Shown here in pieces: positions 2,373 to 34,593 of a stretch of 64,000 nt of DNA. This stretch comes from Streptomyces cynarae (GTDB lineage Bacteria; Actinomycetota; Actinomycetes; Streptomycetales; Streptomycetaceae): contig NZ_CP106793.1 in assembly GCF_025642135.1 (NCBI RefSeq), positions 6,230,001 to 6,294,000 on the forward strand, read 5' to 3'. How positions within the stretch are numbered: position 1 is the stretch's first letter; each line of letters begins with the position of its first letter. The notes under the pieces are model-generated. The model made no database searches. It worked only from the letters and a program-made list of their open reading frames with translations, and was not told the origin of the DNA. The translations under genes and the position numbers were made by a program.

Positions 2373-3070
2373 CTACGGCACCGACACAGACACGGATTCC
2401 GGCACAGGCACCGATTCCGGCACAGGCACCCCCTCCACAGGCAGCAACCGAGACGGCCCCGCGCGCAGGAGCCACGGTGGCAGGAGCGACAGCGGGTCCA
2501 GGTACGTGTCCCCTCGGCGCAGGCCCCAGTGCAGGCAGGGGCCCGGGCAGTGGGCCGTCGACGGTTCCAGCACGCCCAGGACGTCGCCCGGGGCCACCTC
2601 GTCCCCTTCCCGTACCGACGCGCGCACCGGCTCGTACGTCGTGCGCAGGGGTGGGTCGCCGGTGCCCGTCAGGTCGACCGAGACCACGCCCCGTCCCGCC
2701 ACCCGGCCCGCGAACGTCACCCGGCCGGCGGCGACCGTCCGTACCGGATCGCCCGCGGCTGCCGCGAGGTCCACGCCGCGGTGGCCCGGGCCGTACGGAG
2801 TCGCCGGGGGTTCCCAGCCCCGTACCACCGTGGGGCGCACACCCACCGGCCACAGCCGGCCCACGGTCGGCACCGAACCGCCGGGGTCCGGCGCGGGCGC
2901 GCCCGGCGAGGGTCCCCGGGCCGCCGCAGGCACCGCTGTCGACGGTCCGCGGGCGGCGTCGGCACCGCCGCGGAAGGCCAGCCGCCCGCCCACGCCGCCG
3001 AGGCCGGGACCGCCGCCGTGACCAGTAGCAGTGCCGTCGGCCATGTCCGCACAGATCGTTTCGTTCGCAT
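2373..3070 (-). CDS. M23 family secreted metallopeptidase (signal peptide and catalytic domain in different frames)
   Basis: The catalytic part, readable from 3044 to 2373, holds [14 protein letters not shown] (the HxxxD zinc motif) and [20 protein letters not shown], the M23/LytM ending. Such enzymes cut peptidoglycan peptide bridges outside the cell. In that frame the first Met (3044) gives no signal peptide. In the neighbouring frame, an ATG at 3070 starts [20 protein letters not shown], a convincing Sec signal peptide ending near ASAAWA. Joining the two needs one extra base between about 2960 and 3030, so a frame error is likely. The C terminus has an 18-nt tandem repeat (VPVPES units, ~2379-2430). 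The gene diverges from rpsB, as in other Streptomyces. Confidence 0.8.
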
Positions 3071-3111
3071 GGGAGTACCGTGCCGGACGACGGGCCGGGC
3101 CTGCCGGAACC

Positions 3112-3138
3112 TGTGGACAACTGCCCGGTTGTGGACAG
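3112..3138. promoter_or_regulatory. Two DnaA-box-like sites
   Basis: TGTGGACAA (3112-3120) is the exact reverse complement of the Streptomyces DnaA box TTGTCCACA. TGTGGACAG (3130-3138) fits the relaxed consensus. Both lie in the divergent promoter region between the M23 gene and rpsB. Function is inferred only. Confidence 0.35.
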
Positions 3139-3317
3139 CGGCGTCACCCGCTGCCCCGGCGGTCCCGTACACTTCTTGTGGCGATCCGGGTCACCGGGTC
3201 GACTTCGCACGCCCCGACAACGGGCCCTCAGGGGCCGGTGTCAGCGCCTCCTCGGTCCTTCGCGGCACGGCGCACGCGGGCGTCAGGGACAACCGAGAAA
3301 ACACAAGGAGAACGGCC

Positions 3318-4196
3318 ATGGCCGTCGTCACGATGCGGGAGCTGCTGGAGAGCGGCGTCCACTTCGGTCACCAGACCCGTCGCTGGAACCCGAAGATGAA
3401 GCGCTTCATCTTCACCGAGCGCAACGGCATCTACATCATCGACCTGCTCCAGTCGCTGTCGTACATCGACCGCGCCTACGAGTTCGTCAAGGAGACCGTC
3501 GCCCACGGCGGCACGGTCATGTTCGTCGGCACGAAGAAGCAGGCGCAGGAGGCCATCGCCGAGCAGGCCACCCGCGTCGGCATGCCGTACGTCAACCAGC
3601 GCTGGCTGGGTGGCATGCTCACCAACTTCTCGACCGTCTACAAGCGTCTGCAGCGCCTGAAGGAGCTGGAGCAGATCGACTTCGAGGACGTCGCGTCCTC
3701 CGGTCTGACCAAGAAGGAGCTCCTCGTCCTCTCCCGCGAGAAGGCCAAGCTGGAGAAGACCCTCGGCGGTATCCGCGAGATGCAGAAGGTGCCGAGCGCC
3801 GTCTGGATCGTGGACACCAAGAAGGAGCACATCGCGGTCGGTGAGGCCCGGAAGCTCAACATCCCGGTCGTCGCCATCCTCGACACCAACTGCGACCCCG
3901 ACGAGGTCGACTACAAGATCCCGGGCAACGACGACGCGATCCGCTCCGTCACCCTGCTCACCCGTGTGATCGCCGACGCGGTCGCCGAGGGCCTCATCGC
4001 CCGTTCCGGCGTGGCCGCCGAGGGCAAGGGCGAGAAGGCCGCCGGCGAGCCGCTCGCCGAGTGGGAGCGTGACCTGCTCGAGGGCGAGAAGAAGGCCGAG
4101 GAGGCCCCCGCCGCCGAGGCCGAGAAGCCGGCCGAGGCTCCGGCTGCCGAGGCTCCGGCCGCCGAGGCTCCGGCTGCCGAGGGCGAGCAGGCCTGA
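3318..4196 (+). CDS. rpsB: 30S ribosomal protein S2
   Basis: S2 is an essential small-subunit protein that binds late and helps recruit S1 and mRNA. The protein has 292 residues and opens [20 protein letters not shown], the classic S2 start; [12 protein letters not shown] and IDLLQSL are also present. The ATG at 3318 follows AAGGAGAACGGCC, a strong ribosome binding site, although the frame stays open far upstream. The C-terminal ~45 residues are a low-complexity extension of Glu/Ala/Pro repeats ([17 protein letters not shown]), usual for streptomycete S2. The next gene is tsf, the widely conserved rpsB-tsf pair. Confidence 0.98.
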
Positions 4197-4320
4197 ACTT
4201 CAGGGCCGTTCGGCTGATGTGAGGGCGGGCGGCGCCGTGTGCGCCACCCGCCGTTCATCCGCAAGCCCTTGGATCTGCTTCAGGCCGACGGATCCGCATC
4301 GGCGGATCTTCACCGGCAGC

Positions 4321-4343
4321 AGATCTACGTAGCCCGTAGATCT
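4321..4343 (+). promoter_or_regulatory. Hairpin in the rpsB-tsf intergenic region
   Basis: AGATCTACG and CGTAGATCT form a perfect 9-bp stem around a 5-nt loop, midway between the rpsB stop and the tsf start. There is no T-tract. It may be a partial terminator/attenuator or an RNA processing site that tunes the S2:EF-Ts ratio; that role is inferred. Confidence 0.45.
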
Positions 4344-4417
4344 TCGGTGGCCGCCCGCCCCCGGGTCGGCGGCTGCCGCTTCGAGACTTCGAACTCCGAG
4401 AAGAGATTCACAGAATC

Positions 4418-5254
4418 ATGGCGAACTACACCGCCGCCGACGTCAAGAAGCTCCGTGAGCTCACCGGCGCCGGCATGATGGACTGCAAGAAGGCGCTGGA
4501 CGAGGCCGAGGGCAACGTCGACAAGGCCGTCGAGGCGCTCCGCATCAAGGGCCAGAAGGGCGTCGCCAAGCGCGAGGGCCGCTCCGCCGAGAACGGCGCC
4601 GTGGTCTCCATCATCGCCGACGACAACTCCTCCGGTGTCCTCGTCGAGCTGAAGTGCGAGACCGACTTCGTCGCCAAGGGCGAGAAGTTCCAGGCCGTCG
4701 CCCAGGCGATCGCCGAGCACGTCGCCAAGACCTCCCCGGCCGACCTCGAGGCCCTGCTCGCCTCCGAGATCGAGCCCGGCAAGACCGTGCAGGCGTTCGT
4801 CGACGAGGCCAACGCCAACCTCGGCGAGAAGATCGTCCTCGACCGTTTCGCGCAGTTCGCCGACGGCTACGTGTTGGCGTACATGCACCGCACGATGCCC
4901 GACCTGCCGTTCCAGATCGGTGTGCTCGTCGAGCTCGACAAGCCGAACGCCGAGGTCGCCAAGGGCGTCGCCCAGCACATCGCCGCCTTCGCGCCGAAGT
5001 ACCTCTCCAAGGAGGACGTCCCGGCCGAGGTCGTGGAGTCCGAGCGCCGCATCGCCGAGGAGACCACCCGCGCCGAGGGCAAGCCCGAGGCCGCCCTGCC
5101 GAAGATCGTCGAGGGTCGCCTCAACGGCTTCTTCAAGGACGCCACGCTGCTCGGCCAGCCCTACGCGCTGGACAACAAGAAGTCCGTCCAGAAGGTCCTG
5201 GAAGAGGCCGGTGTCACCCTGAAGCGCTTCACGCGCATCAAGGTCGGCATCTGA
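4418..5254 (+). CDS. tsf: Translation elongation factor Ts
   Basis: EF-Ts is the guanine-nucleotide exchange factor that recycles EF-Tu-GDP to EF-Tu-GTP. The 278-residue protein starts [20 protein letters not shown], the UBA-like N-terminal domain with the signature [14 protein letters not shown]. The two core-domain signatures follow ([15 protein letters not shown], then [15 protein letters not shown] and [19 protein letters not shown]). The start follows GAGAAGAGATTCACAGAATC. It pairs with rpsB and is followed by pyrH and frr, the usual actinobacterial order. Confidence 0.98.
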
Positions 5255-5361
5255 GTCCGGACCGCGATCGACGCGCGACCCCGGTAGGGTCGAAAGCAGT
5301 CGTCTGCGCACTCGCGTAGGCCGACCCGCACACGCGTGTGGCGGACGACAGCAGATCTGAC

Positions 5362-5419
5362 GAGGAGGCCATTGCCGCGCATGGGATGCGAAACACGCCC
5401 CACCGGCAATGGCCTTCTT
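5362..5419 (+). promoter_or_regulatory. Long nested hairpin in the pyrH leader
   Basis: AGGCCATTGCCG (5366-5377) pairs perfectly with CGGCAATGGCCT (5404-5415), and outer G-U/A-U pairs extend the stem to about 16 bp. A second small hairpin (CGCAT-GGG-ATGCG, 5378-5390) sits inside its loop. The structure ends 26 nt before the pyrH ATG, just ahead of the ribosome binding site. It could terminate tsf transcription or attenuate pyrH. Confidence 0.7.
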
Positions 5420-5445
5420 CGTATGTGCACCACGAGGAGATCTCC

Positions 5446-6204
5446 ATGACCACCAAGGCCGAGAAGAGCGACGACGGCAAAGTTCGCGGCCGGTTCCTGC
5501 TGAAGCTGTCCGGAGAGGCGTTCTCCGGCGGCACCGGACTGGGCGTCGACCCGGACGTGGTGCACGCCATCGCCCGGGAGATCGCCGCCGTGGTGCGCGA
5601 CGGATCCCAGATCGCCGTCGTCATCGGCGGCGGCAACTTCTTCCGCGGCGCGGAACTCCAGCAGCGAGGCATGGACCGGGCCCGCTCCGACTACATGGGC
5701 ATGCTGGGCACGGTCATGAACTGCCTCGCCCTCCAGGACTTCCTGGAGAAGGAGGGCATCGACTCGCGCGTGCAGACCGCCATCACCATGGGCCAGGTCG
5801 CCGAGCCCTACATCCCGCTGCGCGCCGTGCGTCACCTGGAGAAGGGCCGCGTGGTCATCTTCGGTGCCGGTATGGGCATGCCGTACTTCTCCACCGACAC
5901 GACCGCCGCCCAGCGCGCCCTCGAGATCGACGCCGAGGCGCTGCTGATGGGTAAGAACGGTGTGGACGGCGTCTACGACTCCGACCCCAAGACCAACCCC
6001 GAGGCCGTCAAGTTCGACTCGCTCAGCTACGGCGAGGTCATCACCCGCGACCTGAAGGTCGCCGACATGACCGCGATCACGCTGTGCCGGGACAACAAGC
6101 TGCCCATCCTCGTCTTCGAGTTGCTGGCGGAGGGCAATATCGCCCGGGCCGTCAAGGGTGAGAAGATCGGCACACTCGTGGGTGACCAAGGCGGCCGGGA
6201 GTGA
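5446..6204 (+). CDS. pyrH: UMP kinase
   Basis: PyrH phosphorylates UMP to UDP with ATP, the entry to UTP, CTP and dTTP pools. It belongs to the amino-acid-kinase fold and is regulated by GTP and UTP. The 252-residue protein shows [10 protein letters not shown] near the N terminus (phosphate loop), [11 protein letters not shown], and [17 protein letters not shown] [14 protein letters not shown], and [13 protein letters not shown] chose the ATG at 5446 because it follows CGAGGAGATCTCC; the frame is open upstream to 5338 but that part overlaps the leader hairpin. frr lies 168 nt downstream. Confidence 0.97.
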
Positions 6205-25659: not shown

Positions 25660-27024
25660 TCACAGCTTGGTCCATGCCTCCGTGAGGGTGGCCCGCAGGA
25701 TCTGCTCGATCTCGTCGAAGGTCTCCTGGTTCGAGATCAGCGGCGGGGCGAGCTGGACGACCGGGTCGCCGCGGTCGTCGGCGCGGCAGTACAGGCCGTT
25801 GTCGAACAGCGCCTTGGACAGGAAGCCGTACAGGACGCGCTCGGTCTCCTCCTCGTCGAAGGACTCCTTGGTCGCCTTGTCCTTGACGAGCTCGATGCCG
25901 TAGAAGAAGCCGTTGCCGCGGACGTCGCCGACGATCGGCAGGTCGTGCAGCTTCTGCAGGGTGGAGAGGAACGCGGCCTCGTTGTCCAGCACGTGCTGGT
26001 TCAGGCCCTCGCGCTCGAACAGGTCGAGGTTGGCCAGGCCCACCGCGGCGGAGACCGGGTGGCCGCCGAAGGTGTAGCCGTGCAGGAAGGTGTTGTCGCC
26101 CTTGTAGAAGGGCTCGGCGAGGCGGTCGGAGACGATGCACGCGCCGATGGGGGAGTAGCCAGAGGTCATGCCCTTGGCGCAGGTGATCATGTCCGGGACG
26201 TAGCCGAACTTGTCGCACGCGAACATCGTGCCGAGGCGGCCGAAGGCGCAGATGACCTCGTCGGAGACCAGCAGTACGTCGTACTGGTCGCAGATCTCGC
26301 GCACCCGCTGGAAGTAGCCGGGCGGCGGCGGGAAGCAGCCGCCGGCGTTCTGCACCGGCTCCAGGAAGACCGCGGCGACCGTGTCCGGGCCCTCGAAGAG
26401 GATCTGCTGCTCGATCTGGTCGGCGGCCCAGCGGCCGAAGGCCTCCGGGTCGTCGCCGAAGATCGGGGCCCGGTAGATGTTGGTGTTGGGGACCTTGTGC
26501 GCGCCCGGCACCAGCGGCTCGAACGGGGCCTTCAGGCCCGGCAGTCCGGTGATGGACAGGGCGCCCTGCGGGGTGCCGTGGTAGGCGACCGCGCGGGATA
26601 TGACCTTGTGCTTGGTGGGCTTGCCGACCAGCTTGAAGTACTGCTTGGCGAGCTTCCAGGCGGTCTCTACCGCCTCGCCGCCGCCGGTGGTGAAGAAGAC
26701 CTTGTTCAGGTCGCCCGGCGCGTGGTCGGCGAGCCGCTCCGCGAGCTCGACGGCCTTGGGGTGGGCGTAGGACCACACCGGGAAGAACGCCAGCTCCTGT
26801 GCCTGCTTGAACGCCGTCTCCGCCAGCTCCGTGCGTCCGTGGCCCGCCTGGACCACGAACAGACCGGCGAGACCGTCGAGGTAGCGCTTGCCCTTGTCGT
26901 CGTAGATGTAGGTGCCCTCGCCCCGGACGATGGTGGGGACGGGCGCGTTCTCGTACGAGGACATGCGGGTGAAGTGCATCCACAGGTGGTCGTACGCGGT
27001 CTTGCTGAGGTCCTTGGTACTCAC
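25660..27024 (-). CDS. Class III aminotransferase, probably putrescine/polyamine-directed
   Basis: The 454-residue PLP enzyme starts at a GTG (VSTKDLSKTAYDHLWMHFTR). Typical features are GTYIYDDKGKRYLDGLAGLF, FTTGGGEAVETAWKLA, LLVSDEVICAFGRLG and the PLP lysine in ITCAKGMTSGYSPIGA (about residue 284). The family includes putrescine:pyruvate and beta-alanine/GABA aminotransferases. It sits between an Lrp regulator and an aminobutyraldehyde-type dehydrogenase, so the inferred reaction is putrescine to 4-aminobutanal. Its S. coelicolor counterpart lies in the polyamine-use region. Confidence 0.88.
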   Translation of the reverse strand: MSTKDLSKTAYDHLWMHFTRMSSYENAPVPTIVRGEGTYIYDDKGKRYLDGLAGLFVVQAGHGRTELAETAFKQAQELAFFPVWSYAHPKAVELAERLADHAPGDLNKVFFTTGGGEAVETAWKLAKQYFKLVGKPTKHKVISRAVAYHGTPQGALSITGLPGLKAPFEPLVPGAHKVPNTNIYRAPIFGDDPEAFGRWAADQIEQQILFEGPDTVAAVFLEPVQNAGGCFPPPPGYFQRVREICDQYDVLLVSDEVICAFGRLGTMFACDKFGYVPDMITCAKGMTSGYSPIGACIVSDRLAEPFYKGDNTFLHGYTFGGHPVSAAVGLANLDLFEREGLNQHVLDNEAAFLSTLQKLHDLPIVGDVRGNGFFYGIELVKDKATKESFDEEETERVLYGFLSKALFDNGLYCRADDRGDPVVQLAPPLISNQETFDEIEQILRATLTEAWTKL

Positions 27025-27026
27025 GG

Positions 27027-27527
27027 CTATCGGGTTCCCCACATGTAGGTCTGCTTCTTCAGCTTGAGGTAGACGAAGCTCTCGGTGGAGCGCACTCCGG
27101 GGACGGCCCGGATGCGTTTGTTGATGACTTCCAGCAGGTGGTCGTCGTCCTCGCAGACGATCTCCACCATCAGGTCGAAGGAGCCCGCGGTCATCACGAC
27201 GTACTCGCACTCGTCCATGGCGGCCAGCGTGTCGGCCGCGGCCTCCACGTCGCCCTCGACGTTCACCCCGACCATCGCCTGCCTGCGGAACCCCACGGTG
27301 AGCGGGTCCGTGACGGCGACGATCTGCATCACGCCCTGGTCGAGCAGCTTCTGGACGCGCTGGCGCACCGCCGCCTCGGACAGGCCGACGGCCTTGCCGA
27401 TCGCGGCGTACGGCCGGCGGCCGTCCTCCTGGAGCTGTTCGATGATGGCGAGGGAGACGGCGTCCAGCTGGGGTGTGCCGTTCTTGGACTCGCGGGAGTC
27501 CCTCTGGTCTGCGCTTCGACTGGCCAC
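27027..27527 (-). CDS. Lrp/AsnC family regulator of polyamine-type genes
   Basis: The protein has 166 residues from a GTG at 27527; upstream in-frame GTGs exist. The helix-turn-helix is at ~22-65 (LDAVSLAIIEQLQEDGRRPY, AVGLSEAAVRQRVQKLLDQG), followed by a RAM domain (TAGSFDLMVEIVCEDDDHLL). It ends 2 nt before the aminotransferase start and diverges from the dehydrogenase at 27708. The syntenic S. coelicolor gene has been described, as I recall, as EpuRI, a polyamine-related regulator; this link is from memory. A CTGCG-GATTT-CGCAG dyad lies in the divergent promoter. Confidence 0.9.
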   Translation of the reverse strand: MASRSADQRDSRESKNGTPQLDAVSLAIIEQLQEDGRRPYAAIGKAVGLSEAAVRQRVQKLLDQGVMQIVAVTDPLTVGFRRQAMVGVNVEGDVEAAADTLAAMDECEYVVMTAGSFDLMVEIVCEDDDHLLEVINKRIRAVPGVRSTESFVYLKLKKQTYMWGTR

Positions 27528-27602
27528 GACCTCACTGTGCACGACGTATCGACAGTTCCGCAAGGCAGGATCGATGAAATTCGTTGTTTCTGTGATCTCA
27601 GT

Positions 27603-27617
27603 CTGCGGATTTCGCAG
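27603..27617. promoter_or_regulatory. Lrp-type 15-nt dyad
   Basis: CTGCG-GATTT-CGCAG is a perfect 5-bp inverted repeat with an A/T centre, of the length and form of Lrp-family sites, in the divergent region between the Lrp gene and the dehydrogenase. Confidence 0.5.
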
Positions 27618-27637
27618 TACTGACGCAATCAAGGGTG

Positions 27638-27665
27638 TTGAAAACGTCGGCCTTCGGACTAGGGT
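27638..27665 (+). promoter_or_regulatory. HrdB-type promoter for the aminobutyraldehyde-type dehydrogenase
   Basis: TTGAAA (27638-27643), a 16-nt spacer and TAGGGT (27660-27665) fit the Streptomyces vegetative promoter. The start codon is 43 nt beyond the -10 box. Confidence 0.55.
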
Positions 27666-27707
27666 GGGTGTCTCAGCGATTGGACACCCGAACTTGGAGG
27701 GCCCGCA

Positions 27708-29147
27708 GTGAGCACCGAGCTGCGTCGTCTGCGCAACTACATCGACGGCGAATACCGTGACGCCGCCGACGGACGGACCACTCAGGTGGTCAACCCCGCG
27801 ACCGGTGAGGCGTACGCGACCGCCCCGCTGTCCGGGCAGGCGGACGTCGACGCCGCGATGGCGGCCGCCGCGGCGGCCTTCCCCGGCTGGCGCGACACCA
27901 CGCCCGCGGAGCGGCAGAAGGCCCTGCTGAAGATCGCTGACGCGTTCGAGGAGCGCGCCGAGGAACTGATCGCGGCCGAGGTCGAGAACACGGGCAAGCC
28001 GATCGGGCTGACCCGGTCGGAGGAGATCCCGCCGATGATCGACCAGATCCGCTTCTTCGCGGGCGCGGCCCGGATGCTCGAGGGCCGCTCGGCCGGCGAG
28101 TACATGGAGGGCATGACCTCGATCATCCGCCGCGAGCCGGTCGGCGTCTGCGCGCAGGTCGCGCCGTGGAACTACCCGATGATGATGGCCGTGTGGAAGT
28201 TCGCCCCGGCGATCGCGGCGGGCAACACGGTCGTGCTGAAGCCGTCGGACACCACCCCGGCGTCCACGGTCCTGATCGCCGACATCATCGGTTCGATCCT
28301 GCCCAAGGGCGTCTTCAACGTCATCTGCGGCGACCGGGAGACCGGCCGCATGATGGTGGAGCACCCGACCCCGGCGATGGCCTCCATCACCGGCTCCGTC
28401 CGCGCCGGCATGTCGGTCGCCGAGTCCGCGTCCAAGGACCTCAAGCGCGTCCACCTGGAGCTGGGCGGCAAGGCGCCGGTCGTCGTCTTCGAGGACACCG
28501 ACATCGCCAAGGCCGTCGAGGACATCTCGGTCGCGGGCTTCTTCAACGCCGGCCAGGACTGCACGGCCGCCACCCGCGTCCTGGTCCACGAGTCGATCCA
28601 CGACGAGTTCGTGGCCGCGCTCGCCAAGGCCGCCTCCGAGACCAAGACCGGGCAGCCGGACGACGAGGACGTGCTCTTCGGCCCGCTGAACAACCCGAAC
28701 CAGCTCAAGCAGGTCACCGGCTTCATCGAGCGTCTGCCCGCCCACGCCAAGGTCGAGGCCGGCGGTCACCCGGTCGGCGACAAGGGCTACTTCTACGCCC
28801 CGACCGTCGTCTCGGGCCTCAAGCAGGACGACGAGATCATCCAGAACGAGGTCTTCGGCCCGGTCATCACCGTGCAGTCGTTCTCCGACGAGGAACAGGC
28901 CGTCGAGTACGCGAACGGCGTCGACTACGCCCTCGCCTCCTCGGTGTGGACCAAGGACCACGGGCGCGCGATGCGCATGTCCAGGGCCCTCGACTTCGGC
29001 TGCGTGTGGATCAACACGCACATCCCGCTGGTCGCGGAGATGCCGCACGGCGGCTTCAAGAAGTCCGGCTACGGCAAGGACCTGTCGGCGTACGGCTTCG
29101 ACGACTACACGCGGATCAAGCACGTGATGACGTCGCTGGACGCGTGA
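27708..29147 (+). CDS. Gamma-aminobutyraldehyde-type dehydrogenase
   Basis: The 479-residue protein starts at a GTG after TTGGAGGGCCCGCA. ALDH hallmarks are APWNYPMMMAVWKFAPAIAA, the catalytic Glu in HLELGGKAPVVVFED and the catalytic Cys285 in NAGQDCTAATRV. Closest in style are PatD/PuuC-type enzymes that oxidise 4-aminobutanal to GABA. It is divergent from the Lrp/aminotransferase pair and is followed by a strong terminator. Together these would turn putrescine into GABA. Confidence 0.9.
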   Translation: MSTELRRLRNYIDGEYRDAADGRTTQVVNPATGEAYATAPLSGQADVDAAMAAAAAAFPGWRDTTPAERQKALLKIADAFEERAEELIAAEVENTGKPIGLTRSEEIPPMIDQIRFFAGAARMLEGRSAGEYMEGMTSIIRREPVGVCAQVAPWNYPMMMAVWKFAPAIAAGNTVVLKPSDTTPASTVLIADIIGSILPKGVFNVICGDRETGRMMVEHPTPAMASITGSVRAGMSVAESASKDLKRVHLELGGKAPVVVFEDTDIAKAVEDISVAGFFNAGQDCTAATRVLVHESIHDEFVAALAKAASETKTGQPDDEDVLFGPLNNPNQLKQVTGFIERLPAHAKVEAGGHPVGDKGYFYAPTVVSGLKQDDEIIQNEVFGPVITVQSFSDEEQAVEYANGVDYALASSVWTKDHGRAMRMSRALDFGCVWINTHIPLVAEMPHGGFKKSGYGKDLSAYGFDDYTRIKHVMTSLDA

Positions 29148-29161
29148 CGGACCGTCACGCA

Positions 29162-29194
29162 GAGGCCCCGGCCGGGGTGTCCCGGCCGGGGCCT
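29162..29194 (+). terminator. Terminator after the dehydrogenase
   Basis: GAGGCCCCGGCCGG and CCGGCCGGGGCCTC form a 14-bp GC-rich stem 15 nt after the stop codon. Confidence 0.85.
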
Positions 29195-29358
29195 CGGCGT
29201 TCCCGTCTCTCCGCCATCGCTGCGAGCGGTGGGTCCGCAGCGGTACGAGTCGCCTGTTATGGCCGCTGATGCCTGATTTTCTTGTTTCGCCGCTTTTCGC
29301 TTCGTCGCGCGATGGGTAGTGCTTCCTCAAGTCCCGGTCGGTGGATGGGGGGAGCGCC

Positions 29359-29718
29359 GTGGATCTCGTGGCGATCATCGCAGCCGCGGTCATCGCGGGT
29401 GTGGCGGCAGGCATGCAGACGGGGGTGAGCGGTGTGGTCGCGGGCTGGTTCCGGCGCGGGCGCAGGGGTGACGAAGCACAGGCGGTACCCCAGCAGCCCC
29501 CCGCAGTGGCCGGTTCGGGGAGCGGCGAGCAGAGCGGGAGTGACGGGCTGGTGGTCCACGCCAACGGCACCGCCCACAGGGTCGACGGGACCGGCTCGGC
29601 GCCGCTCCCCCCGAAAGTGGTCCACAACCACGTCTTCGGCAACACGAACGTGGCGAACGGCGACTTCACCGTCATGAATATCCACACGTCGTCCTCTCCG
29701 GACACCAGGCAGAACTGA
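29359..29718 (+). CDS. Small membrane-anchored protein with a Gly/Asn-rich C-terminal motif
   Basis: The GTG at 29359, preceded by GGGGGGAGCGCC, gives 119 residues. Residues 2-22 (DLVAIIAAAVIAGVAAGMQT) form a single membrane helix, then a basic stretch (WFRRGRRGDEAQ), a Ser/Gly linker and a conserved-looking segment at ~87-108 (VVHNHVFGNTNVANGDFTVM). The Asn/Gly/Val pattern recalls short amyloid-signalling motifs (BASS type) at the tips of bacterial NLR partners; this is a visual resemblance only. It is 52 nt upstream of the RHIM-like protein and probably shares its transcript. No function is known. Confidence 0.6.
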   Translation: MDLVAIIAAAVIAGVAAGMQTGVSGVVAGWFRRGRRGDEAQAVPQQPPAVAGSGSGEQSGSDGLVVHANGTAHRVDGTGSAPLPPKVVHNHVFGNTNVANGDFTVMNIHTSSSPDTRQN

Positions 29719-29770
29719 CCCCGGACGCGTCGGAGTTCCCCCGGGACCGGGGGAGGGGGGAGCGCGGGGC

Positions 29771-31324
29771 ATGCGCGAGCGGCGCCCGGCGGCAAAGGTG
29801 TTCGTGGCCGTGTGCATCGTCGCGTGGCTGCTCGCCCGGACCGACCATGTACGCCGCGTCGTTCTGCCCGCGCTGCGGGACGGTCTCTTGCACGTCGGTC
29901 TCTTCGCGGGCGGTGTCCTCGCGGCAGTCGTCACGGGCATGCTCGTGATCCGGGGAGCGCGGACGGCGAGGCGCGGCCTGCTCAGCCGCCGTGCCGTGCG
30001 GGCAGCCGGTAGGGGGTCCCGGAGCGGCGCCGTCGCCGTGCGGACGGCCGGGGACGCCCCGGCGCGGGCACCGGGTACCCCGGCCCGGCCTTCCGCCATG
30101 ACGCCCGCCCACCGCGTGCCGGCACCACCGGACCAGGTCCGGTCCGAGGACCGGGCGCAGAGCGCGTCCGGCTCCCCGACCGCCGAGCGGCGGGACGACG
30201 ACCGCCGCGCGACGGCGGGCACCGCGCAGCTCGATGCCCTCGGCGTCGCCTTCGGCCCCATACCGGCCCCGGCCGTCGGCGGCCCTCCGGCCCCGCGCAC
30301 GGACCTGCCGCGACGGTCCCCCGCGCGGGCCGCCGATACCACGCCGGCTGCGGGCGCAGTGGACGGCGCACGGGCCGCGAGCACGCGGGAGACCTCGCCG
30401 ACGTCGCCGAAGGTGATGGTGATCGGGTGCCGTGCCGTCCAGGTGGGAAGCCACAACTGGCAGTTCCTGCACTTCCGGTGCGACCTGAGGGCCCAGGTGG
30501 ACTTCGGGTCCGTGCTGCGGCGCCCCGACGTGCAGGAGGATCTCGCTGAGCTGGCACTGGACCCGGAGAACGGAAAGCTGCGTGACCGGGTGATGAGGCA
30601 CCTGTGCCACCGCTGGCAGTTCCTCGGATCGAAGGCACTGGAGCTGCGGCGGGTGGAGCGGCTGAACGGTTCCGGCTACGCGCAGGTGACACCCGGCGAG
30701 AGGGTCCTGGACCGCCTGTGCGAACCGGACACCGGGAGCATGGTGGTGGTGCGCGACTGCGACGGGGTGCAGATCGGCGACCACTGCCGCCAGACGGCCG
30801 AGTTCGCCTACGTGTGCAAGCGTCCCCGGATCGACGAGGTCACGCTGCTCGAGGAGAACCCGGCCGTCGCCGGCGCACTCGTGGACATGATGATCGGCGG
30901 CGCGGAACCCGGCCCCACCGACGCCCTGCACGCGGAACTCGACAGTGCCCTGCGCTCGTACGAGGTCCGCTTCTGGGAGCCCGGCACGGTGAGCCGGGGC
31001 CGCGACGGGTTGTGCGTGGAGGGGTTGGAGGGCGTCAGCGTCGGGTGGGACAACGTCGTGGTCTGCTCCGAGGAGCTACGACCGGAGGTCCACGTGTCCT
31101 CGATCGCCCCCGCATACAACCGCCTCACGGAGCGAGTGATGCGGAAGGTGGCGCTTTTGCCGGACGAGGAGGCGAGGCGGGCAGTGGTACGGGATGCTCC
31201 GCAGGCGGGGGGCACGGACGAACTCGGCCGACTGCCGGATGACGCACCGAGTCCTCCCGAGGTGCCGGACGCGCACGGTCCCGACCGACCGTCGGGCCTC
31301 GGCTTGGGAGGAGGGGGGATATGA
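29771..31324 (+). CDS. Membrane protein with RHIM-like amyloid motifs
   Basis: The protein has 517 residues. Residues ~8-25 and ~37-61 are two membrane helices, followed by a ~130-residue Ala/Pro/Arg disordered linker and a folded region from ~210. Residues 223-231 read VQVGSHNWQ and 333-341 read VQIGDHCRQ, both fitting the RHIM core (I/V)Q(I/V)GxxN; a weaker VSVGWDNVV is near 422. RHIM motifs nucleate amyloid signalling in animal RIP kinases, and RHIM-like (BASS3-type) motifs occur in actinobacterial NLR systems. The small gene at 29359 is probably co-expressed. The tail is Pro/Gly-rich. No enzymatic domain is recognised. Confidence 0.7.
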   Translation: MRERRPAAKVFVAVCIVAWLLARTDHVRRVVLPALRDGLLHVGLFAGGVLAAVVTGMLVIRGARTARRGLLSRRAVRAAGRGSRSGAVAVRTAGDAPARAPGTPARPSAMTPAHRVPAPPDQVRSEDRAQSASGSPTAERRDDDRRATAGTAQLDALGVAFGPIPAPAVGGPPAPRTDLPRRSPARAADTTPAAGAVDGARAASTRETSPTSPKVMVIGCRAVQVGSHNWQFLHFRCDLRAQVDFGSVLRRPDVQEDLAELALDPENGKLRDRVMRHLCHRWQFLGSKALELRRVERLNGSGYAQVTPGERVLDRLCEPDTGSMVVVRDCDGVQIGDHCRQTAEFAYVCKRPRIDEVTLLEENPAVAGALVDMMIGGAEPGPTDALHAELDSALRSYEVRFWEPGTVSRGRDGLCVEGLEGVSVGWDNVVVCSEELRPEVHVSSIAPAYNRLTERVMRKVALLPDEEARRAVVRDAPQAGGTDELGRLPDDAPSPPEVPDAHGPDRPSGLGLGGGGI

Positions 31325-31362
31325 GATCCCGCCGGCCGAACCCGCGGGGTCGCCGGCGGCCG

Positions 31363-32517
31363 TCAGCGGTTGAACGCGGGGAACCCGAACCGCTGCGCGA
31401 CGGCCGCGCCGTCGCCCTTCGCGTCGGTGGCGTTGACGGAGTAGACGAGAGTCCGGGACAGGTCGCGGGTGGCGGCGATCACCGTGGCGTAGCCGGGGCG
31501 GGAGCCCGTCTTGCCCCAGATCACCCTGCCGGTCAGCTCGAACCGCTCCAGCCCCGCCCCGTACCGCGCCCCCGGCACGTCGGGGAGCGTGAACATCTCC
31601 TTCAGCTGCGGCCCGGGCACGACGCGGCCGCGGAACAGCGCCACCAGCAGCCGTTCCAGGTCGGCGGTCGTCGAGATCATGTCGCCGGCCGCCCACCGGT
31701 CGGACATGTTCCAGTCGGTCACGTCGACCAGCCTGCCGTCGATCCAGTCGTATCCGCGGTTGTGCGGACCGTGGATACGCGGGTCGGACCCGTTCGGGAA
31801 CGAGGTCTCCCGCATGCCGAGCGGCCGGAAGATCCGTACGGCCGCCTGGTGCGCGTACGAGTCGCCGGTGATCTTCTCGATCAGCATGCCGAGGACGGTG
31901 TAGTGGATGTTGGAGTAGTCCTGTTGCATGCCGGGCGCGAACTCCGGGCCCTTGGCGACCGAGGCCGCCACGACTTGACGTGGCGTCAGCGTCTCGAAGC
32001 GGTGCGCGTATCCCTCCTCCACCGTCTCCCCGAGGGACGCTCCGGGTTGGAGTCCGCTCGTGTAGTTGAGCAACTGCCGTACGGTGACGGGCTCGAAGTC
32101 CTCGGTCAGCAGCCCGGGCAGATACTGCTGCACGGTGCCGTCCAGGCTGATCCGCCCCTCGGCGGCGAGCTGCAGCACGATCGCCGCGGTCACCACCTTG
32201 GTCACCGAACCGGCCCGGAAGCGGGCGTTGTCCAACGCCGGCGCCCCCGTCCGGACATCGCGCACACCCGCGACGCCGCGCCAACTGCCCTTGCCGCCCA
32301 CGCGGATGAGCGCGGCGGTGGCGTCGTGGTCGGGCAGCCCGGCGATCGCGGCGCGCAGGGCCTCGGTGTCGGGTCCCTCGGTCGCGGACGGCGGGGTCAT
32401 CCGTGCCGAGGACGACGGGGCCGCGGAGTTCGCGGAGGCGACTCCCGCCAGGGGGAGGGCGGTCGGGCTCAGGGCGAGGGCGGCGGCGAGGGCGACGGCG
32501 GTCGGACGTAACTGCAT
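31363..32517 (-). CDS. Secreted serine hydrolase (beta-lactamase / D-Ala-D-Ala carboxypeptidase fold)
   Basis: The ATG at 32517 gives 384 residues with a Sec signal (MQLRPTAVALAAALALSPTA). Class C-type motifs are present: SVTK (about residue 102), YSN in QQDYSNIHYTVLGMLIEKIT, and the HxG-like WGKTGSRPGYATVI. LLNYTSGL and FRAGSVTK are typical of the beta-lactamase-related D-alanyl-D-alanine carboxypeptidases such as the Streptomyces R61 enzyme. It acts outside the cell on peptidoglycan or peptides. It is convergent with the RHIM-like gene (38 nt apart). Confidence 0.9.
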   Translation of the reverse strand: MQLRPTAVALAAALALSPTALPLAGVASANSAAPSSSARMTPPSATEGPDTEALRAAIAGLPDHDATAALIRVGGKGSWRGVAGVRDVRTGAPALDNARFRAGSVTKVVTAAIVLQLAAEGRISLDGTVQQYLPGLLTEDFEPVTVRQLLNYTSGLQPGASLGETVEEGYAHRFETLTPRQVVAASVAKGPEFAPGMQQDYSNIHYTVLGMLIEKITGDSYAHQAAVRIFRPLGMRETSFPNGSDPRIHGPHNRGYDWIDGRLVDVTDWNMSDRWAAGDMISTTADLERLLVALFRGRVVPGPQLKEMFTLPDVPGARYGAGLERFELTGRVIWGKTGSRPGYATVIAATRDLSRTLVYSVNATDAKGDGAAVAQRFGFPAFNR

Positions 32518-32756
32518 GGGATGCTCCCTGATCGAGGGGATGTCGGTGATCATCCTGCGGACCGTTCAGGCGGTGGGGGATCCTCTCGAAGGAGGGCGCG
32601 GCCCCTGGCATGGGACCGGGGGTCGCCCCTAGGGGGCCGGATCCGGCCCCGGCACGGGAGCGTGTGGTCCACGTCGGGCCCGAAAAACTGTTATCCCGGT
32701 ACCCGTCCCTCCGTCTCCCTCAGCGCCGCAGATCCCGACGCACAGGAGCGAAACGC

Positions 32757-32894
32757 GTGAGGCATGGTCACGGCGACCGCACCCGCCCCCACCGCCGGCC
32801 ACGACCGGTGATCCGTCCCGGTACCGACGGATATCCGGCGTTGTGCCGTGAGCCGTCGTGGACCGCCCGTCCCGTGGATCCCGGCCGTGGCTGA
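32757..32894 (+). CDS. Possible small upstream ORF
   Basis: The GTG at 32757 follows CACAGGAGCGAAACGC, a good ribosome binding site, and opens a 45-codon Arg/Pro-rich peptide ending 46 nt before the ECF sigma gene. There is no conserved feature. It could be a leader peptide; otherwise the interval 32518-32940 contains only promoter DNA. Confidence 0.25.
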   Translation: MRHGHGDRTRPHRRPRPVIRPGTDGYPALCREPSWTARPVDPGRG

Positions 32895-32940
32895 GACTGT
32901 ACGTCCGCAGGGCGGTACGACGACCAGGGAGAGGACGCAC

Positions 32941-34593
32941 GTGGACAGCCGGCAGTGGCGTTCCACCATCGCGGCGGCGCAGGCCGGTGACCGGCATGCG
33001 CTGGACCAGCTGGTCGCGGGCTGGCTGCCGCTCGTCTACAACATCGTCGGCCGCGCGCTCAACGGCCATGCCGACGTCGACGACGTCGTGCAGGAGACGA
33101 TGCTGCGCGCCGTCGGCAACATCGGCGCCCTGCGCGATCCGGACAGTTTCCGCTCCTGGCTGGTCGCCATCGCGATGCGGCAGATACGGGAGCGGGCGCG
33201 CCGCAGGACGTCCGAGCCGCTGGCCGGGGACGCGGCGGACCGGGCCGCCGACTTCGCCGAACTCACCGTGCTGCGGCTGCAGTTGGAGGGTCAGCGGCGC
33301 GAGGTCGCGGAGGCGGTGCGCTGGCTCGACGACGAGGACCGGCAGCTGCTGTCGCTGTGGTGGCTGGAGGTCGCGGGTGAACTCACCCGCCGGGAGCTGG
33401 CCGCCGCCGTCGGCATCAGCCGCCAGCACGCCGCCGTCCGGGTGCAGCGGATGAAGGCGCGCCTGGAGGTGGCGCGCGGCATCATACGGGCGCTGGAGGG
33501 CTCCTGCCCCGAGCTGGCCGCCGTTACCGCCCGCTGGGACGGCCGGCCCGGATCCGTGTGGCGCAAGCGGCTGGCCCGGCACATCCGCGGCTGCCCGGTC
33601 TGCGCCGGGGCCGAGAAGGCCGTCGTGCCCGCCGAACGGCTACTCGCCGGGATCGCGCTCGTCCCCGTCCCGGCCGGCTTCGCCCTGTCGCTGGCGCTGG
33701 GCGGTAAGACGTCCGCGGCGGCAGTCTCCGTCGGCTGGTCCGCCAAGGTGCTCGGCGCGCTCACCAAGCCCGCCGTCGTCGTCACGGCGGGCGCGACGAT
33801 CGCCGCGGGCGGCGCGTACGTCGTGACCCGGACGCCACAGGCGCCGCCCGCCCCTCAGATCTCACCCACCGCGGCGAGCACGGCCCGCCCGCCCGCGCAC
33901 ACCCCGCCGAGTCTCCTGCCCTCCCCGTCCACGGCCGCCCCCACACCGTCGAAGACGGCGGACCTGTACGGCACGGTCGTCGACGCCGTCGACAACGCCC
34001 CCGCCGCGAACGTCCCGCCGGGGCCGCTGCCGCACCGCCCCGAGTCCGGGATCACCAGCAGCGGCGGCCCGAGGACCGTCATGCAGCACCGCGGGGAGAG
34101 CGTCACCCTCAGGGGTCAGGGCTACGTCCTGGTGCGCTGGTACATCGCGCCGGCGCACCGGCCGGGCAACCTGGTCATGCCGGCCTGGACCGGCCTGAAG
34201 GGAAAGCTGTTCCACGTGGCGTCCGGCGGCGGCCGCCGGATGGACGACCCTCTCGTCGGAAGCCCCGGCGGCTACGCCACCGGCATGGGCGGACCGACCA
34301 TCGGGTACGCCGTCCTGCCGGCGGGCACCCAGCAGATGTGGCAGAACGAGTACTTCTACCTCGACGGTTCCGTCACCCTCACCCTCAACGAGCACGGCTG
34401 CGACTACGGCGTCACCGTCTTCCCGTCGAGCTGGGACGCGGTGGACAAGGACATCCGGACGGGCCCCGCCCAGGGCGTGATCCGTTACGGCATGGTCCGT
34501 GACAACGGCAAGGACACCGCACCGGTGCCGCAGTACGTCACCCGCGCGACCCCGGCCGATCCGGCGACCGTCCCTCAGCGTTCCCGCGTGTAG
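32941..34593 (+). CDS. ECF sigma factor fused to a zinc-finger/transmembrane/extracytoplasmic domain
   Basis: The GTG at 32941 follows AGGGAGAGGACGCAC and gives 550 residues. Sigma region 2 is at ~20-95 (ALNGHADVDDVVQETMLRAV, SFRSWLVAIAMRQIRERARR) and region 4 at ~130-185 (LTRRELAAAVGISRQHAAVR). HIRGCPVCAGAEK (~219-231) has the H-x3-C-x2-C zinc motif of anti-sigma factors. It is followed by hydrophobic segments (~245-300), a Pro/Ser/Thr linker and an outside domain with WYIAPAHRPGNLV and QMWQNEYFYLDGSV. Sigma, anti-sigma-like and sensor parts sit in one chain, as in some fused actinobacterial ECF groups. The last 19 nt overlap the convergent GDPD gene. Confidence 0.88.
   Translation: MDSRQWRSTIAAAQAGDRHALDQLVAGWLPLVYNIVGRALNGHADVDDVVQETMLRAVGNIGALRDPDSFRSWLVAIAMRQIRERARRRTSEPLAGDAADRAADFAELTVLRLQLEGQRREVAEAVRWLDDEDRQLLSLWWLEVAGELTRRELAAAVGISRQHAAVRVQRMKARLEVARGIIRALEGSCPELAAVTARWDGRPGSVWRKRLARHIRGCPVCAGAEKAVVPAERLLAGIALVPVPAGFALSLALGGKTSAAAVSVGWSAKVLGALTKPAVVVTAGATIAAGGAYVVTRTPQAPPAPQISPTAASTARPPAHTPPSLLPSPSTAAPTPSKTADLYGTVVDAVDNAPAANVPPGPLPHRPESGITSSGGPRTVMQHRGESVTLRGQGYVLVRWYIAPAHRPGNLVMPAWTGLKGKLFHVASGGGRRMDDPLVGSPGGYATGMGGPTIGYAVLPAGTQQMWQNEYFYLDGSVTLTLNEHGCDYGVTVFPSSWDAVDKDIRTGPAQGVIRYGMVRDNGKDTAPVPQYVTRATPADPATVPQRSRV

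Follow-up and report, generated by a model that had tools for sequence, protein, structure and literature searches.

What do two adjacent genes of Streptomyces cynarae encode, a small one for a protein with a hydrophobic N-terminus and a larger one for a protein with repeated cores resembling the RIP homotypic interaction motif (RHIM)? RHIM proteins of animals include RIPK1, RIPK3 and ZBP1, the last with a tandem-RHIM scaffold layout, and the motif assembles the amyloids of cell-death signalling. The genes lie in a stretch of 64,000 nucleotides, hereafter the window (contig NZ_CP106793.1, positions 6,230,001 to 6,294,000), in which the initial annotation had described them as a membrane pair with RHIM-like motifs and without an NLR or enzymatic domain. 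Our comparisons suggest, with a probability of about one half, that the pair is an NLR-independent variant of bacterial BASS3/RHIM signalling, the large protein being the RHIM array and the small one a membrane effector or adaptor. In the excerpts of the literature used here and cited below by PMC number, bacterial BASS and RHIM motifs are mostly tied to NLRs and effectors (PMC7889193, PMC8086366, PMC12261475, PMC7885112, PMC12881547); the RHIM may also act centrally, and searches so far have been biased toward NLR architectures (PMC7889193).

RHIM (PF12721) was the sole Pfam family matching the large protein (517 residues, ATG start) at E ≤ 10, with 24.7 bits and an E-value of 1.6e-5 over two stretches, above the curated cut-off of 20; no NCBIfam family was found for it. 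The two cores, VQVGSHNWQ and VQIGDHCRQ, lie exactly where the initial annotation had placed them (Table 1). Searched across the whole 9.36-Mb genome, the single cores scored 18.0 and 15.2 bits, each under the Pfam cut-off, and were the only RHIM matches at E ≤ 1. In the same search four of 14 control genomes had matches, all of them under the cut-off, and in a scan of 101 Streptomyces genomes 18 did at E ≤ 1, one of them over the cut-off, so that a high-scoring RHIM is uncommon in the genus. A BELL-derived profile scored 20.3 bits over the two cores, a value equalled by 0 of 3000 shuffles, and a profile of 11 other RHIM/BASS3-type motifs from Streptomyces, made without the array family, recovered both cores as well (equalled by 0 of 2000 shuffles); RHIM and BASS3-type profiles alike thus place them above background. 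A chance motif in a low-complexity protein is very improbable. The motif is short, each core alone stays under the cut-off, and several of the 18 Streptomyces genomes have, in our reading, their matches in plainly unrelated proteins or frames, but chance is contradicted by the shuffles, by the placement of the two cores in homologous modules and by their invariance across ten sequences (both below). Judged by these profiles, the RHIM-like cores are more than chance. The third core that the initial annotation had thought possible (VSVGWDNVV, residues 422-430) does align in register but is degenerate, with S for Q, and its comparisons with the other cores were weak (P 0.0008 and 0.0014). It is closer to canonical in distant relatives, reading GVSAGRHNKQ in the Amycolatopsis protein P0012 and GVMIGTANRQ and GIVIGRDNKQ at locus L074; the array has two cores and ancestrally perhaps had three.

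The cores are parts of larger repeats. Profiles of modules 1 and 2 made from seven sequences aligned with a score of 58.1 (P 3.3e-11) over 49 columns, spanning the core plus the region of the first helix, while none of 200 column shuffles exceeded 19.95; profiles from four close orthologues gave a weaker match (P 2.7e-4). On this comparison the two modules, each begun by a core, are homologous. An AlphaFold model of the S. scabiei relative P0009, made with ten sequences (pLDDT 65.1, pTM 0.41), has the cores as predicted strand-turn-strand units at residues 17-44, 126-152 and 209-235, with short helices after the first two and one long helix after the third. Such a succession would also suit a folded, non-amyloid scaffold protein in which the cores are ordinary beta-arch elements packed intramolecularly, so that it offers an assembly platform without templating. 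The degenerate third core fits that explanation, as does the position of the cores inside conserved modules with no free terminus, unlike the BASS motifs as described in the excerpts of PMC7889193. We consider it unlikely, though deserving serious weight, since the free-tail motifs of BELL proteins and the tails of the EAD1-type partners described below match the same profile, as heterotypic pairing would need, and the P0009 model is of moderate confidence only. A profile search of the PDB placed the RHIM of RIPK3 (7dac), in register, third of three matches, behind two glutathione transferases, at a non-significant E of 2.3.

A full-length search found, among the matches listed, one entry of 99% identity and three relatives, and a search with the array only added six, including P0009, P0011 (S. 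albogriseolus) and P0012; in both, scoring was restricted to the 8000 candidates with the most words in common, and the relatives number at least those listed. NCBI names P0003, P0004 and P0009 'RIP homotypic interaction motif-containing protein', and RHIM is missing from the source's precomputed domain list for P0010 and P0011. In an alignment of the window protein with nine relatives (30-78% identity to it), all ten members had a Pfam RHIM match at E ≤ 1 (best 4.1e-8). The alignment has 21 invariant columns, of which 12 fall in cores 1 (Q224, G226, N229, Q231) and 2 (V325, R328, V333, Q334, G336, Q341, F345, Y347) and two in core 3 (G421, G425). The Q-x-G core is accordingly kept in relatives, as the initial proposal required: within the (G/A)-V-Q-(V/I)-G pattern of the RHIM, Q and G are invariant in cores 1 and 2 of all ten sequences; the window's core 3 is without the Q.

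The array gene is rare in the genome samples scanned. The DNA pattern of the close clade occurred in one of 392 Streptomyces genomes, the close-clade profile in at least one of 150 genomes and the array profile in at least one of 200 genomes of the family, each time in its own genome only. At class level at least five of 296 genomes matched: its own, G716, G824 and G619 (one other family), and G657, whose match was dropped as an artefact. The three profile counts are lower bounds, 10 to 14 candidates having been scored per genome. A GTDB scan with a scabiei-type profile gave two loci.

The small gene (119 residues, GTG start) is separated from the large one by 52 bp, and third-position GC is coding-like in both open reading frames (0.87 and 0.88). 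A small gene adjoins the array gene in all six loci read (the window, L065, L066, L074, L076 and L077), and the conserved neighbourhood foreseen in the initial annotation is thus borne out. Such a gene lies directly upstream in S. scabiei 87.22 (L065), where the two genes overlap by 4 nt, and in S. griseoflavus JCM 4479 (L066); the genes for P0003 and P0006 are probably adjacent too, because both proteins come from one strain. The L065/L066-type small protein shares the helix and a basic stop with that of the window (MEILALVAAALVAGVVAGTQTGVSEGVVEWFRR vs VDLVAIIAAAVIAGVAAGMQTGVSGVVAGWFRR), and the tails at L065 and L066 read NVSVGDGTQINY and NVSVGNGTQINH. No Pfam family matched the window's small protein at E ≤ 10. 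By hydropathy it begins with one hydrophobic segment and the large protein with two, as first described. All five Streptomyces-type members examined (the window, P0005, P0006, L065 and L066) retain the helix at the start of the small protein, which upholds that half of the 'membrane pair'; the two-helix anchor of the large protein was present in P0001-P0003 only. No clear membrane segment was seen in P0004 and P0007-P0012 (the highest 19-residue mean, that of P0010, was 1.49), some of which may start late, and none in the large proteins of L065 and L066 read stop to stop. The N-terminus of the array varies by clade, with two helices, a Pro-rich region or, in P0012, a soluble-looking stretch of about 90 residues in place of the transmembrane (TM) helices, combined there with a near-canonical third core.

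A weak resemblance to the effectors of known signalosomes appeared in the helix of the small protein. The N-terminal profile of BELL proteins, a name given here from the descriptions in PMC7889193, aligned residue 1 to residue 1 of the small protein. The helix score was equalled by 4 (window), 0 (P0006) and 6 (P0005) of 5000 helix shuffles, and in runs of about 2000 by 1 (window), 3 (P0005), 1 (P0006), 0 (L065) and 0 (L066). When 253 hydrophobic segments of the same DNA were ranked, three BELLs came first, with the helices of the window (15.6 bits), L065 (14.3 bits) and L066 (12.7 bits) fourth, sixth and seventh. Over about 30 residues the helix weakly resembles the first BELL helix, which is suggestive and not proof.

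A different front end was found outside Streptomyces. In G716, G619 and G824 (L074, L076 and L077, respectively) next to the array lies a divergent gene whose product has an EAD1 domain (E 6.3e-19, 9.9e-17 and 3.9e-19), and the partners end in the RHIM-like tails GVMVGSGNVQTLNFG, VVVGSHNRV and GVMVGTGHTQTLNFG. Under a 28-motif model, which contains the array cores of L074 and L076, each of these tails was equalled by 0 of 2000 shuffles; under the 11-motif model, which excludes array proteins, the numbers were 0, 10 and 4. By these comparisons the partner is conserved and its front end swapped, with a helix in Streptomyces and EAD1 in another actinobacterial family. We tentatively propose, at somewhat less than even odds, a distinct NLR-free class of actinobacterial amyloid signalosomes, made of a multi-RHIM array and an interchangeable RHIM-tailed partner with either a BELL-like helix or EAD1. 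EAD-coupled conflict systems with NTPase, peptidase and other cores were described by Kaur et al. (2020, PMC7159879; 2021, PMC8195603). The present loci resemble them in having EAD1 as the N-terminal domain of the small partner, a modular adaptor swap, and differ in the component to which it is coupled, the word 'RHIM' occurring 0 times in the main text of either paper. No EAD1 gene stood directly beside the further array genes or pieces at L074 (6279-8078), L076 (near 2400-3812) and L075, and L075 and L077 are probably two sides of one genome's contig break. As a separate observation, L074 (3056-8078), L076 (2400-7075) and L075 (291-3571) combine EAD1-RHIM, one or two multi-core arrays and a conserved TM/coiled-coil protein starting VNTALFVVYLLVLIAI; the combination is possibly a larger system.

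The closest known counterparts are the BELL/NLR amyloid signalosomes with a BASS3 (RHIM-like) motif (PMC7889193, PMC8086366, PMC7885112). With one BELL protein as the query, 16 of 150 genomes gave a match at E ≤ 1e-3, S. cynarae not among them. In the loci read, seven BELL proteins had a RHIM-like tail (L037, L039, L041, L042, L046, L049 and L050). At L039, L041, L042 and L046 a long NLR-type protein with an N-terminal RHIM-like motif is encoded downstream (STAND_TPR by PADLOC in the first three, NB-ARC plus TPR at L046). The window pair shares with such loci the two-gene layout, the small hydrophobic-helix effector placed first and a RHIM-like motif in the partner; it differs in having no NLR next door, in a motif that is repeated and internal in the large protein, and in a small protein without helical bundle and without a detectable motif in its tail. 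At L037 (3902-5268) and L050 (3950-5065) the BELL-RHIM gene stands, with no NLR, beside a gene for a membrane protein whose N-terminal RHIM is accompanied by one TM segment and another domain. Replacement of the NLR by another RHIM protein is therefore not unique to the window, being found in two of the seven RHIM-tailed BELL loci, although these membrane proteins differ from the window array in their single, N-terminal RHIM and one TM segment. At L049 (2138-4381, reverse-strand numbering) a 469-residue protein with the N-terminal motif VQLGNHNTQHNHF is encoded two genes upstream of the BELL-RHIM gene. Seven BELL relatives were without a RHIM tail (L038, L040, L043, L044, L045, L047 and L048) and may represent another signalling route or remnants; in all but L045 the BELL gene and a gene encoding some 1000 residues are divergently arranged.

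Within the species the two genes occur, or are missing, as a unit. A second genome of the same species, G234, aligned to the window at 98% over 26000-29205 and at 94% over 31361-34500, and carries 274 GC-rich bases (G234:C11:249775-250048, L064) in place of 29206-31360. None of 33 listed matches in G234 (40 of 776 first-look candidates scored) fell within the cassette, and the 274-base stretch had no significant match to it, the best being 70% over 107 columns of linker-coding DNA (E 0.057). The base composition of the cassette (0.726, against 0.68 and 0.729 in the flanks) is close to that of the downstream flank. Gain or loss of the two genes as a unit fits a functional pair. It would fit a toxin-antitoxin-like pair as well, in which the array restrains, instead of activating, a small membrane protein that is toxic by itself; the position of the small hydrophobic gene in front and the 4-nt overlap at L065 point the same way. 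We regard this as distinctly unlikely, given that array partners elsewhere bear EAD1, an adaptor domain, and no membrane helix, and that the large protein has no Pfam domain except RHIM.

The cassette is flanked by an aldehyde dehydrogenase gene (27708-29147, +) and a beta-lactamase-family gene (31363-32553, -), which puts the pair in convergent intergenic space. No NLR lies near the pair among the four neighbours scanned (an aminotransferase, the aldehyde dehydrogenase, the beta-lactamase-family protein and a sigma-factor-like protein), and the genome search found no other RHIM at E ≤ 1. A setting between metabolic and enzyme genes, with no PADLOC match, would suit a membrane complex with a sensory or developmental role and no relation to cell death, in which the cores serve only for clustering. 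That explanation seems at least as unlikely as a toxin-antitoxin-like pair, the patchy presence and the links to BELL-like and EAD1 partners fitting conflict systems better.

Table 1. Features of the gene pair and its cassette (window coordinates)
Feature	Position	Strand	Basis
Variable cassette, exactly the two genes	29206..31360		Absent from same-species G234, 274 other bases there
Small gene: N-terminal hydrophobic helix, linker, Gly/Asn/Val tail	29359..29718	+	Open reading frame, hydropathy, relatives P0005, P0006, L065, L066
Small protein residues 1-33, hydrophobic helix weakly like first BELL helix	29359..29457	+	Profile and shuffles
Small protein C-terminal tail, residues 84-113	29608..29697	+	Position of RHIM-like tail in L066/L074/L076/L077 partners; motif undetectable here
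Large gene: two hydrophobic segments, disordered-looking linker, RHIM array	29771..31324	+	Open reading frame, Pfam, hydropathy
Large protein residues 4-61, hydrophobic segments at about 4-25 and 42-61	29780..29953	+	Hydropathy; present in P0002, P0003; not in L065/L066
RHIM-like core 1, residues 215-235, VQVGSHNWQ at 223-231	30413..30475	+	Pfam, profiles, conservation
Region after core 1, residues 236-297, in module 1	30476..30661	+	Alignment; helices in P0009 model
RHIM-like core 2, residues 324-348, VQIGDHCRQ at 333-341	30740..30814	+	Pfam, profiles, conservation
Region after core 2, residues 346-402, in module 2	30806..30976	+	Module comparison
Degenerate third core, residues 414-431, VSVGWDNVV	31010..31063	+	Alignment, module comparison

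Several observations weigh against an NLR-independent RHIM signalling pair. The flanking genes are those of an aldehyde dehydrogenase and a beta-lactamase-family protein, and PADLOC returned 0 families at E ≤ 1 for either protein. The AlphaFold model of the window's large protein, made with four sequences, had a pLDDT of 35 and is useless, that of P0009 reached the moderate confidence given above, and a fold search with the latter found no match. The arrays of L074 and L076 were not part of the ten-sequence alignment; the Q of their cores is replaced by M or V, and Pfam RHIM did not match them. Hydropathy shows no general conservation of the large protein's two-helix anchor, which is confined to close relatives. 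At L065 the opposite strand carries an AAA-ATPase-like gene (3522-5507, -; AAA_16 below its cut-off) some 2.3 kb away from the large gene; it may be an NTPase component or unrelated. The remaining points concern the small protein. Its BELL profile score is low (7.6 bits, E 0.25 for 1000 sequences), the profile aligns residues 1-30 only and the helical bundle is missing, and in the ranking of hydrophobic segments an unrelated one from L044 came fifth with 15.1 bits, against 15.6 for the window helix, with another unrelated one at 11.8. The Gly/Asn/Val-rich tail noted initially is present but carries no RHIM signal: 988 of 2000 shuffles equalled or beat it under the 28-motif model and 857 under the 11-motif model, and the BELL model gave 1090 of 5000. 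For the tails of P0005, P0006, L065 and L066 the numbers per 2000 were 115, 226, 35 and 19 with 28 motifs and 1036, 182, 78 and 27 with 11 motifs. The signal is thus weak in L065 and L066 and clear only in the EAD1-type partners. Since shuffles match its score under all models, the window tail is RHIM-like by position only, and it may have diverged or lost RHIM function.

If the pair is an NLR-independent RHIM system, the large protein would act as an array, scaffold or sensor, held at the membrane by two helices in the window clade, with the clade-variable N-terminus as a possible input side. Once triggered, molecules of the array protein would stack by their cores and cluster the small protein's tails or act on them as a template, gathering its helices in the membrane; permeabilisation with growth arrest or cell death would be a likely outcome. 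In the EAD1 loci the array would instead collect the EAD1 adaptor and further effectors with it, the latter by way of the homotypic contacts between EAD1 domains proposed in PMC7159879. The positive-inside rule, applied by eye to the basic residues after the helices, suggests a cytosolic location for both the array cores and the tail of the small protein, so that the proposed array could gather the small protein at the membrane. Stacking or amyloid formation, direct contact of both proteins, membrane damage, cell death and a role in defence are what we infer from sequence for such a system.

With animal RHIM proteins the window protein shares the V-Q-(V/I)-G core; it differs in having no kinase, Z-nucleic-acid or death domain by Pfam and in the extra modules between its cores. 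The EACC1 two-gene membrane system (System 4 in the part of PMC7159879 consulted) resembles the pair in a 5' gene with a single TM helix, and differs in that neither window protein matched EACC1 or caspase in Pfam at E ≤ 10. No NLR-free multi-RHIM bacterial system was found among the titles and abstract openings listed by searches of open-licence papers (the top 20 or fewer per search), which is weak evidence of absence. Added to the initial annotation are the internal duplication, the weakly BELL-like N-terminus, the replacement by EAD1 and the empty site within the species.

Few signalling elements have been described in animals, fungi and bacteria alike, and RHIM-like motifs belong to them. 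The array and its partners are small, testable proteins, and presence and absence within one species provides a natural pair of strains for comparison. The recurrence of a RHIM array without an adjacent NLR and with swappable partners suggests that amyloid-type signalling in multicellular bacteria extends beyond NLR pathways. A distinct class of NLR-free signalosomes, if real, would place tandem-RHIM scaffolds in bacterial conflict systems and link the RHIM to the EAD network.

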